DNA of 64,000 bases from Rhizobium sp. CF080 (GTDB lineage Bacteria; Pseudomonadota; Alphaproteobacteria; Rhizobiales; Rhizobiaceae). Below the pieces are notes generated by a model, which made no database searches, had not been told where the DNA came from, and was given only the letters and a program-made list of their open reading frames with translations. The position numbers and the translations under genes are program-made. Numbering within the stretch: the stretch's first letter is position 1; each line of letters opens with the position of its first letter. The stretch is taken from positions 186,001 to 250,000 of the forward strand of contig NZ_AKKC02000009.1 of NCBI RefSeq assembly GCF_000282095.2, read 5' to 3'. Below are positions 45,157-52,292 of the stretch, one piece after another.

Positions 45157-45201
45157 GACGAAGGCCTCCGGCGAAAACAGCCGGAGGCCTTCGTCATTTT
45201 A
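45157..45201. terminator. Terminator between serA and the AlaRS-like gene
   Basis: A perfect 16-bp stem (45157-45172 with 45180-45195), GAAAACA loop, followed by ATTTTAT. It ends right at the convergent gene's stop codon. Confidence 0.85.
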
Positions 45202-45939
45202 TCCGTCCGGCATGTCCTGCATGTCGGAAAGCTCGATGCCATGCGTATCGAACCACCATTCGGGGCTCATGCCGGGATGCCTTTCCCGCAGGCGCAGGTA
45301 TTTTGCCCGAAGCCGTTCCTGGCGCTGGACCTCCCCGATGAAGAAAGGATGGTCGAGCGTGCCGCCCATCCGATGCAGGCGGCGGAGCAGTTTGCGCAGG
45401 ACGTAACCCTGCTCCTTGTTTCCCGGAGGGTAGCCGCTTTCGATGATCTTCATGATCGCACTGCCGAGCGTTTCGAGCGCATCCTCCGGCGGCGTGCCGT
45501 TGATGAGCATGTCGAGACGGTCGGCGCCAAAGCCGACATCGATGCAGGTTCCGAGCGGATTGACGATGTTTCCGATCTCCACCCCGTCCTTGTAGAACTC
45601 GGTACTGTATCCGGTGATGCTGCCATCGCTCCAGGTGCATTCCGGATCCGGGACGATCGGAATGCGCTCGCGGTAAAGCGGCGTCCAGTCGGTGAGGCGG
45701 TCCGGATGAATGGTGACATGATCCGGCGTGAGACCGACCGTTCGCAAGAACTCGAGCCAGAAATCGATGGCACCGCCAACGCTCATCTCCCGGAAGGAGA
45801 AGAGGCCGAGCATGGTGAAGTGAAGGAAGTGGGTTCCGTCTCCGATTTCGTCTAGGTCGCCCAGACGCAGGCATGCCTGGCTGTTTGCGACGGTTCCTCT
45901 GTGGGAGGGATCGGAGAAGAGGGGTTTGTACTGCTGCAT
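45199..45939 (-). CDS. Free-standing alanyl-tRNA-synthetase-like catalytic core
   Basis: 246 residues from ATG 45939, but similarity to AlaRS begins earlier. In-frame sequence from about 46058 reads VTAGRLIRHYRDFCLSKG and then HDATTLFCSAGMQQYKPLF, matching AlaRS positions 1-50. A perfect AAAGGAGG-N6-ATG at 46061 is out of frame by one base, so either a frameshift separates it or a nonstandard start is used. Class II motifs are visible: NSQACLRLGD, GTHFLHFTMLGLFSF, IDVGFGADRLDML, GYVLRKLLRR and WWFDTHGIEL. Editing and C-Ala domains are absent. It probably activates alanine or a related acid for something other than standard tRNA charging; that is inference. Confidence 0.72.
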   Translation of the reverse strand: MQQYKPLFSDPSHRGTVANSQACLRLGDLDEIGDGTHFLHFTMLGLFSFREMSVGGAIDFWLEFLRTVGLTPDHVTIHPDRLTDWTPLYRERIPIVPDPECTWSDGSITGYSTEFYKDGVEIGNIVNPLGTCIDVGFGADRLDMLINGTPPEDALETLGSAIMKIIESGYPPGNKEQGYVLRKLLRRLHRMGGTLDHPFFIGEVQRQERLRAKYLRLRERHPGMSPEWWFDTHGIELSDMQDMPDG

Positions 45940-46348
45940 GCCAGCGCTGCAGAAGAGCGTGGTGGCGTCATGCGGCCTTACGGATTGAATGCATGTGAAG
46001 TCGATGCCCTTTGAAAGGCAGAAGTCTCGATAGTGCCGGATCAGGCGTCCCGCGGTGACATAGGCAACCTCCTTTGCGTTTGTGTGCCTAGCAAGAGGGT
46101 AGTGGCATTCTGCACGCGGCGCAATCCGGTCTGCGGGGGCATCTTTTGAAGCAGAGACCCCGCGCCTGGATATCGCAGGCTGATATCCGGAATGTATGCT
46201 TTTGGTTGTATTTTTGATGCTTGGCTCCCGTTTGAAACTCCGTTATCTACTTCGACGGGAAAAATGGAGGATGGGCCTAAAATTCGGATGGCCGCCTCTC
46301 TATATAAATCGGGAATACCGCGCTTGAGCGGTCTATGAGGAGAAAACG

Positions 46349-50657: not shown

Positions 50658-50734
50658 GGCGGGGTAGCTCAGTTGGTGAGAGCGCAGGATTCATAACCCT
50701 GAGGTCGGCAGTTCAATTCTGCCTCCCGCTACCA
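50658..50734 (+). tRNA. tRNA-Met (CAT anticodon)
   Basis: 77 nt including an encoded CCA. Acceptor GGCGGGG pairs with the TCCCGCT strand (two G-U pairs), D-loop TCAGTTGGTGAGAGC, anticodon stem-loop around ATTCATAAC with anticodon CAT, and T-arm GGCAG-TTCAATT-CTGCC. Elongator methionine is most likely; initiator features (C1 mismatch, GGG-CCC anticodon stem) are absent, and tRNA-Ile2 cannot be fully excluded. It forms the left end of a prophage whose integrase gene ends inside it. Confidence 0.93.
50691..50734. other. Probable prophage attachment core (attL) in tRNA-Met
   Basis: The 3' part of the tRNA, from the anticodon loop to CCA, overlaps the integrase C-terminus on the opposite strand. 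Insertion at a tRNA 3' end with restoration of the gene is the usual pattern. The matching direct repeat at the other prophage end lies outside this window, so the exact core is inferred. Confidence 0.6.
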
Positions 50735-52292
50735 CCTCAACAGCCGACAACTCAGGTCCGGCTATTGAGGACAATTTTCCCCTGATTTCGTATTTATAAT
50801 CGGCTCCGGGTCTTCTCGGATGCACTGTAATGCTGGTGACAATCTCTCTGATCATCGTGCCTGCTTCATGAGGAAGTTCGCCCAGCTTATTCTGTAGGAG
50901 CTCTGTGAGGTTTTGGATCACGTAGCGGAACCGATCTATGGCGAGCGGCTTCAGATACAGGACATTGGTGGTCGGCTCCGTGGTTGCAAGTTCCGCTTTG
51001 ATCCGGTCGCGTTCCTTCCGCAGCTTCGGCATGATGGCCGCAACGTCGTCATCTTCAATTAGGCCGCGCGAAATTTGGTCGACGATAGCGGTGATGCGGT
51101 CTTGCACGTCAGTCAAGGCAGTCTCCAGCGTCGCGCGAGTGCCGCGCCATTCGGCTGCCTTGCGGCGGCTGTGGGCCTCATATTCAGTCAAGAAACCGTC
51201 GATATATTTGGTGTCTGAAAATATGCTCCGGAGCCGGTCGACAACGTCGTCTTCGATTTTCTGGAGGTAATAACGACCGCTGTTCGCGCAGTCGCCGGAC
51301 TCCCGGTACCGACTGCACATGATGCGCGGGCCCGACTTGTCGGTGCTAGTCGTGGTCAATGCCCCACCGCACGATGCACAGCGCAATAGGCCTGTTAGCA
51401 TTCGCTTGGCCCGAGGCATGTACTTGCCGCGCGGACCGCCAACTGCTTCCTTGCGAGCCCTTGCCGCCTCATAGATCTCGTCGGAAACGACCCGCAAATG
51501 AGGGGCTTCCGAATATTCATATTCGTTGACGTCGTTTTCCCTGGAGACCCGTCGGCCCGTCGCAGGGTCTTTCACCATCCGCACGCGGTTCCAGACCCGC
51601 TTGCCCACATAGAGCGGATTGCGCAGGATGCCGTGGCCTCGCTTCTCATTGCCGTTGATAGTCGAAGCGTTCCACTGCCGACCGCGGGGGGCGGGGATGT
51701 TGTCGTGATTCAGGATCGAAGCGATTGCTCGCGGGCTCACGCGGGCCACATAGAGATCGAACACTCGGCGGATTACTTCTGCTTCGGCCTCAACGATCCT
51801 TAATTCCCCCGGCTCACCGGGAACAGGTTCATAGCCGTATGATTTGCCGCCGGCATTGCGCCCCTCGCGGATCACGCCGAGCATGCCGCGCTTCGTCTTC
51901 TTTGCTCCTTCCTCCCGCTGCATCTGCCCGATAACGCCGTACATACCCACCTGGACGGTGTCCAACAAGCCGCCATTCACGCAGTTGATTGCCACACCGC
52001 GGAACTTCAGCGTTTTGTGGACATGGGCGAGATCGGCGATGTCGCGCGATATACGGTCGGGCGCTTCCGAAATGACGATGTCGAATTCGTTCCGCTCTGC
52101 CGCCTGCATGAGGTGAGCCAGCCCGGGACGGCCGAACATCGAGGCCCCTGATTTTGCCCGATCAGAATATTCACCTACGAGCTCGAACCCAGATCGTTCG
52201 GCATAGGCTTGGCAAAGCCTGATCTGGTCCTCAACCGATCTGTCGTTCTGGAGGTCGGTGGAATAACGGGCGTAAATGATTGCGCGGTTCAT
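50691..52292 (-). CDS. Large serine recombinase (prophage integrase)
   Basis: 533 residues. Resolvase domain with catalytic Ser in IIYARYSTD (S11) and the block EAPDRISRD. A Recombinase domain (about 165-280), a zinc ribbon (LLRCASCGG, later CSRYRESGDC) and a coiled coil (about 375-440) follow, as in large serine integrases. The last residues GGRIELPTSGL are encoded by the antisense of the tRNA gene and the TGA lies over the anticodon loop, so the C-terminus is supplied by the attachment site. It is the last gene of the leftward operon. Confidence 0.92.
   Translation of the reverse strand: MNRAIIYARYSTDLQNDRSVEDQIRLCQAYAERSGFELVGEYSDRAKSGASMFGRPGLAHLMQAAERNEFDIVISEAPDRISRDIADLAHVHKTLKFRGVAINCVNGGLLDTVQVGMYGVIGQMQREEGAKKTKRGMLGVIREGRNAGGKSYGYEPVPGEPGELRIVEAEAEVIRRVFDLYVARVSPRAIASILNHDNIPAPRGRQWNASTINGNEKRGHGILRNPLYVGKRVWNRVRMVKDPATGRRVSRENDVNEYEYSEAPHLRVVSDEIYEAARARKEAVGGPRGKYMPRAKRMLTGLLRCASCGGALTTTSTDKSGPRIMCSRYRESGDCANSGRYYLQKIEDDVVDRLRSIFSDTKYIDGFLTEYEAHSRRKAAEWRGTRATLETALTDVQDRITAIVDQISRGLIEDDDVAAIMPKLRKERDRIKAELATTEPTTNVLYLKPLAIDRFRYVIQNLTELLQNKLGELPHEAGTMIREIVTSITVHPRRPGADYKYEIRGKLSSIAGPELSAVEVVAGGRIELPTSGL

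Follow-up and report, generated by a model that had tools for sequence, protein, structure and literature searches.

A conserved recoding cassette, probably phage in origin, precedes a minimal alanyl-tRNA synthetase gene (mini-AlaRS) at 45199–46061 on the minus strand of the window (the whole 64,000-nucleotide stretch analysed). Comparison across homologues shows that a two-frame layout and an X_XYZ_GCN site are conserved, that a usable in-frame start is lacking and that synonymous sites are constrained where the frames overlap. In X_XYZ_GCN, the codon XYZ opens with the same base as the one just before it and is followed by an alanine codon whose third base is free. The reading that we favour, with moderate confidence, is that mini-AlaRS is probably phage-derived and that its ribosomes undergo a programmed −1 frameshift within the first few codons.

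Gene layout

The final base of the mini-AlaRS stop codon lies at 45199. Going back from there, the main frame stays open for 347 codons to a stop near 46243, and upstream of its first ATG (45939) it has no ATG, GTG or TTG as far as that stop. Similarity to homologues does continue 5′ of ATG 45939, as an earlier note on this DNA had read, and the methionine of MQQYKPLF there sits inside the conserved motif-1 block; homologues do not start at this methionine, the outcome that the note had named as speaking against it. The sole good start is AAAGGAGG with ATG 46061, out of the main frame. It opens a short ORF in what we call frame 0, which ends at TGA 46043–46041. The features are:

46068–46075, minus strand: Shine-Dalgarno (SD) sequence AAAGGAGG, ending six bases 5′ of ATG 46061–46059
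46041–46061, minus strand: short frame-0 ORF ATG TCA CCG CGG GAC GCC TGA (MSPRDA, six codons)
46051–46053, minus strand: upstream GCN, here GCG (Ala in the main frame), seven bases 5′ of the frame-0 Ala codon
46047–46050, minus strand: proposed slip site G_GAC, where P-site tRNA-Asp would move from GAC to GGA (X_XYZ in 99/99 5′ ends)
46044–46046, minus strand: frame-0 Ala codon GCC, the proposed A-site codon at the shift (GCN in 99/99, third base free)
45199–46047, minus strand: post-shift main frame of mini-AlaRS (CGC CTG ATC ...), 282 residues
45157–45195, no strand: inverted repeat GACGAAGGCCTCCGGC/GCCGGAGGCCTTCGTC between mini-AlaRS and serA, read by eye, likely a terminator

The predicted trans-frame product, computed from these coordinates, has 287 residues. 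A loose form of the cassette pattern matches five sites in the window's own genome; only the mini-AlaRS site resembles the cassette, the other four being judged from their matched letters only.

A TTG and TATCTT-like letters, weakly conserved, stand about 60 and 40 bases 5′ of ATG 46061 and recur in homologues. They lie ahead of the SD and suggest that a promoter sits very near the start. Elsewhere in the window, a tRNA-Met gene (50658–50734) adjoins a 533-aa serine-recombinase-like ORF (50691–52292). Judged from the ORF sequence, this is probably an integrated element at the tRNA-Met gene.

Bacterial homologues

A contig scan found 43 loci in Rhizobium, Neorhizobium, a few ‘Rhizobiales bacterium’, two Phyllobacterium and one Caulobacteraceae MAG. 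Identity is 90–95% for Neorhizobium orthologues (the window's genome is of Neorhizobium type), 68–69% for Phyllobacterium and 61% for the MAG; a weak 35% match (L082) was left out of the homologue count. The gene occurs in 7/57 genomes of its own genus and 48/148 of genus g54, where its coordinates match those in named Rhizobium records. Outside these two genera, at the thresholds used, there were 0 matches in draws of genomes from the family (394), order (397) and class (385). It is an accessory gene, sitting on plasmids (pRL9, p42b) or larger contigs. No neighbour is constant: across the 42 named loci and the window, no family recurs beyond local synteny.

The 5′ block is present in 81 of the 82 scanned bacterial loci (it is missing in L081), which hold 53 distinct ORFs. 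The out-of-frame start reported earlier for the window is kept in all 53, as are GAC GCC and the frame-0 stop (TGA in 52, TAA in L071). The short-ORF start is ATG in 52/53 and ACG in R. lentis (L054/L117, 2/81 loci). Among 50 sequences with an intact main frame, positions −13 to +20 hardly vary: AGGAGG at −12 to −7 is the same in 50/50, positions +3, +6 and +7 alone vary freely and single exceptions occur elsewhere. A possible hairpin spans the start in bacteria, and because its letters are invariant it carries no covariation signal.

Synonymous sites in the overlap are constrained. Variation at main-frame codons A3 G4 R5 L6 is 0.010, compared with 0.295 for 75 comparable codons, and only 2 of 100000 random four-codon sets were as low. 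Broken or partial copies exist (e.g. L073, L078, L079 and L081); the first three have broken main frames and were excluded from these codon statistics.

The earlier note had proposed either a one-base frameshift or a non-canonical start. Its premise stands, in that this is not a normal start. A single-base sequencing error is rejected because 53 distinct bacterial ORFs, and phages too, conserve the layout. A non-canonical start codon finds no support either, since the codons that follow the site in the main frame (CTG, AAT, AAC, ATT, AGA and others) are not conserved between families. An upstream in-frame start was considered and rejected: the window has no start codon there, and in L074 and L127 a stop just upstream closes the main frame. 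Existing annotations place the mini-AlaRS start at three different codons in NC_008379 (L087), CP007068 (L088) and NC_007763 (L472), one of them CTG.

An AlaRS catalytic core

The earlier assignment to the AlaRS catalytic core is confirmed by a Pfam match to PF01411 (1.6e-21, over the cut-off). The size of about 285 residues then given also holds (about 286), and the editing and C-Ala domains are absent, the mini-AlaRS frame ending at residue 286. Full-length AlaRS is a separate gene elsewhere in the genome (G000:C2, open frame 890), and mini-AlaRS scores 73.5 against the NCBIfam alaS cut-off of 457.

An AlphaFold2 model built with 18 sequences is of moderate quality (pLDDT 73.8, pTM 0.60). 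The closest solved structures by Foldseek are AlaRS fragments (9jc7, 2.2e-13), and the VIA fold comparison with AlaRS gives Z 19.8 over 280 residues (rmsd 4.7). For AlaRS, the part of PMC12143591 used here describes ATP and alanine contacts at Arg68, Phe89, Arg232, Asp225 (E. coli Asp235) and Val204. The mini-AlaRS counterparts R65, F81, R181, D174 and V166 are each invariant in 58/58 proteins. The motif-2 arginine Arg68 of 9jc7 was equated with R65 of the window by residue count in the alignment, and V166 was placed through a different alignment block from R65. Mini-AlaRS has the class II core with the mapped ATP and alanine contacts, whose loss the earlier note had named as speaking against its reading. 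Activation of alanine with ATP is the most likely activity of the product; as acceptors, the earlier note had put forward a carrier protein, a small molecule or a special RNA as candidates.

Phage homologues and probable origin

A profile scan of IMG/VR found 67 phage mini-AlaRS loci (40–67% identity), 64 of them with a readable start. Fifteen carry main-frame CGC preceded by GGA or AAA, and 49 do not. The 49 plain loci have an in-frame ATG, nearly always right at the first helix (further upstream in L158 and L179). Of the 15 recoded loci, 12 have no upstream in-frame ATG at all; in L126 such an ATG overlaps the SD, and in L162 and L164 the in-frame ATGs are distant. Counted as distinct phage homologues, 15/54 share the out-of-frame-start layout. 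A huge-phage record (LR745206, 634,780 bases) has a mini-AlaRS start of the recoded type.

A tree of 58 proteins nests the bacterial genes among the phage ones, with L126 beside the Rhizobium–Phyllobacterium clade and L127 beside the Caulobacteraceae MAG. The recoded start requires four changes on this tree. It is therefore old, and was gained or lost more than once. The gene and its cassette are probably phage-derived.

The cassette in other phage families

Two more phage families, F1 (42 loci) and F2 (7 loci), were collected by protein similarity alone to remove search bias. Their members mostly begin with the frameshift cassette, often amid tRNA genes. F1 contributes 28 counted 5′ ends (L452 also fits and stands outside the count); plain in-frame ATGs occur in L456, L458, L459, L460, L461 and Acidovorax phage ACF1. 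F1 (about 110–130 aa) and F2 (about 135 aa) share a C-terminal motif, LNxxVTMWxED...ELYxDxxxPxWW (L422–L469, A5/A6 alignments), and hhalign relates them with probability 83.5 over 39 columns. F1 has no similarity to mini-AlaRS. The cassette also leads phage ORFs of other kinds, a family F3 and singletons (L234, L339, L237, L215, L483). Pfam and PHROGs gave no match over the cut-off for F1, F2, F3 or three singletons.

Pooling 50 bacterial, 15 phage mini-AlaRS, 28 F1 and 6 F2 sequences gives 99 distinct recoded 5′ ends. X_XYZ_GCN lies inside the short ORF in 99/99, where the script searched the short ORF only and the 15 phage mini-AlaRS starts were picked by eye. The slip types are G_GAC (61), A_AAC (32), C_CAA (4), T_TTA (1) and A_AAA (1). 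The site is at codons 5–6 in 95/99, compared with 1/273 ordinary SD-started ORFs of the phage loci; elsewhere it is at codon 2 after a GTG start (L128, L143, L156) or codon 12 (L174). A frame-0 GCN is found in 99/99, and the −1 main frame would take over at this codon in all of them. All four alanine codons occur, so it is the amino acid that is kept, not the letters. The GC of the upstream GCN, seven bases before the frame-0 alanine codon, is present in 96/99 (absent in L128, L143 and L156). GGAGG is lacking in 5/15 recoded phage mini-AlaRS loci. The X_X repeat is the weaker rule: its background at the same place is 91/273, and the slip type has changed independently about four or five times.

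Pattern scans extended the set. A pattern unspecified after NNGC gave 47 matches, some on the same contigs as earlier loci, and 29 of these are two-frame with a main frame above 60 codons. All 29 have X_X and, as codon 6, an alanine codon; the slip codons among them are AAC, GAC, CAA, TTA and AAA. Patterns derived from the cassette gave at least 158 sites, at least 65 of which combine a main frame above 60 codons with a short ORF in frame 0, some of them plainly chance. The last scan gave 11 two-frame matches: 7 with X_X and alanine, and 4 with neither and without GGAGG. It added G_GAA_GCA within a tRNA array (L483). L236 and L249 have the site with a main frame of 29 codons only. Of 28 phage records, which are often fragments, 25 contain the cassette pattern a single time; in the other three the known cassette falls outside the pattern. 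We found no description of this cassette in the open-licence literature.

tRNA setting

tRNA genes are found in 29/38 cassette loci. For phage mini-AlaRS, a tRNA gene lies within 2.5 kb of 12/15 recoded genes versus 4/39 plain ones (Fisher 1.8e-6). tRNA-Ala next to the cassette shows no clear enrichment: it makes up 4 of the 26 tRNAs within 300 nt, a count that omits one tRNA-Ala touching the end of the L128 gene, versus 28/307 overall. In cassette-bearing phage tRNA arrays, ARAGORN also reports tRNAs with a two-letter anticodon (ta) and an odd anticodon loop:

L275, 9370–9444: two-letter-anticodon tRNA
L330, 10559–10633: two-letter-anticodon tRNA
L339, 3996–4070: two-letter-anticodon tRNA

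Proposed mechanism

Ribosomes would initiate at ATG 46061 and decode M-S-P-R-D, still in frame 0. At that point tRNA-Asp would occupy GAC in the P site; while the A-site GCC stays unfilled, this tRNA would slip back one base (G_GAC to GGA). Decoding would then resume at CGC CTG ATC in the main frame, giving MSPRD-RLIRHY.... If alanyl-tRNA were accepted first, GCC would be read and the ribosome would reach the frame-0 stop.

Overlapping frames with a startless downstream frame, as expected for −1 frameshifting, are seen in 53/53 bacterial ORFs and 12/15 phage loci, and the slip site is conserved. The canonical X_XXY_YYZ heptamer is not seen in the seven bases before the Ala codon (e.g. GCGGGAC, GCTAAAC), so this is not the tandem-slippage subtype of programmed −1 frameshifting. 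From the comparisons we infer slippage as the event, its position at this codon and a rate dependent on charged tRNA-Ala. Frame, slip rule and alanine rule would all be accommodated most simply by −1 slippage in the P site with an unfilled Ala codon. Against it, a tRNA moving from GAC to GGA re-pairs imperfectly, and one moving from CAA to CCA poorly. A review, in the part cited here, gives slow A-site codons more weight in +1 than in −1 shifts (PMC5009743).

Tentatively, and with some doubt, we suggest that the cassette is a portable gauge. Scarce Ala-tRNA-Ala would shift ribosomes to −1 and turn on mini-AlaRS or F1/F2, and bacteria would have captured the mini-AlaRS version. Phages, mostly those with tRNA arrays, would have put GCN-XXYZ-GCN at the start of one gene. 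The suggestion comes from finding an alanine-type enzyme behind an alanine shift codon; against it, the F1 and F2 genes have no known link to alanine. If true, hungry-codon frameshifting would here turn on a natural gene, at a codon for the very amino acid that its product handles, and a slip codon plus one alanine codon would suffice as an aminoacyl-tRNA gauge. Deliberate use of starvation frameshifting, an old question, would become directly testable. It would also mean that annotation misses or mis-starts genes in phage tRNA arrays, and would hint that alanine charging matters in infection.

Alternative explanations

The strongest rival to slippage is doublet decoding, in which tRNA-Ser(GCU) pairs with just the first two bases, GC, of the Ala codon and sets the −1 frame in the A site without a P-site slip. 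Such decoding is known at GCA codons in E. coli, according to the part of PMC12202706 cited here. It would match the frame exactly, along with the invariant GC and free third base, and output would likewise depend on competition with Ala-tRNA-Ala. Still, it leaves the X_X repeat before the Ala codon (99/99) and the upstream GCN unexplained, and we consider it unlikely. The upstream GCN is instead central to a seven-base backward hop, in which peptidyl-tRNA-Ala would leave the frame-0 GCN and land on the main-frame one. Seven bases back is the correct frame and both codons are there in 96/99, but L128, L143 and L156 lack the landing codon, the Ala codon is not as a rule followed by a slow codon, and X_X again has no role. 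We find a hop hardly credible.

Re-initiation after the short-ORF stop, at an overlapping non-AUG main-frame codon (CTGA: CTG, or ATC), would account for a frame-0 stop that is invariant in bacteria (53/53) with CTG or ATC at it, and the NCBI annotation of R. etli p42b does start the gene at the CTG overlapping that stop. It fits bacteria and not phages because the phage stop moves, from 0 to at least 9 codons past the Ala codon, and none of the main-frame codons at those stops is a near-cognate start. Even among bacteria, L071 has CTA, and L074 and L078 lack ATC. X_X and Ala would also go unexplained. We rate re-initiation as quite improbable. The patchy distribution of a sometimes broken gene (above) and the drawable hairpin would suit a duller account: a sequencing error or decaying gene, an overlap kept by descent or by RNA or protein binding, and protein made from an unrecognised in-frame start. 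Set against this are an active site invariant across wide divergence, the recurrence of the site ahead of protein families that share no detectable similarity, and the upstream stop that shuts the main frame in L074 and L127. We give this account very little weight, and keep P-site slippage as the preferred reading.

Comparison with known systems

Mini-AlaRS resembles AlaRS (alaS, PF01411) in its class II core, motifs 1–3, mapped ATP/alanine residues and best fold match. It differs in length (about 286 versus about 890 residues), in lacking the editing and C-Ala domains and in its shortened acceptor-binding part. AcmF of ascamycin biosynthesis is, in the section of PMC12945691 used here, likewise an AlaRS relative reduced to N-terminal domains; it is said there to have lost most ATP/alanine residues and to use Ala-tRNA, whereas mini-AlaRS keeps five mapped ATP/alanine residues invariant. 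Amino acid:carrier-protein ligases are also class II synthetase cores without a tRNA-binding domain, and an AlaRS-type entry is included among them in the cited portion of PMC9437257. Unlike these, mini-AlaRS has no constant neighbour gene.

The frameshifts of prfB and antizyme are autoregulatory. The cassette would be like them in that the shift would occur more or less often according to how much of a decoding factor is available. The same likeness holds for hungry-codon frameshifting, for which the review, as cited in part, knows of no trans-frame proteins with a starvation-specific function (PMC5009743); the mini-AlaRS cassette would be a candidate for such a function. Doublet decoding by tRNA-Ser3 at GCA, as described in the cited part of PMC12202706, is similarly a −1 shift at an Ala codon in competition with tRNA-Ala. 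Here, however, a conserved slip codon precedes the Ala codon, and the site belongs to the architecture of the gene.
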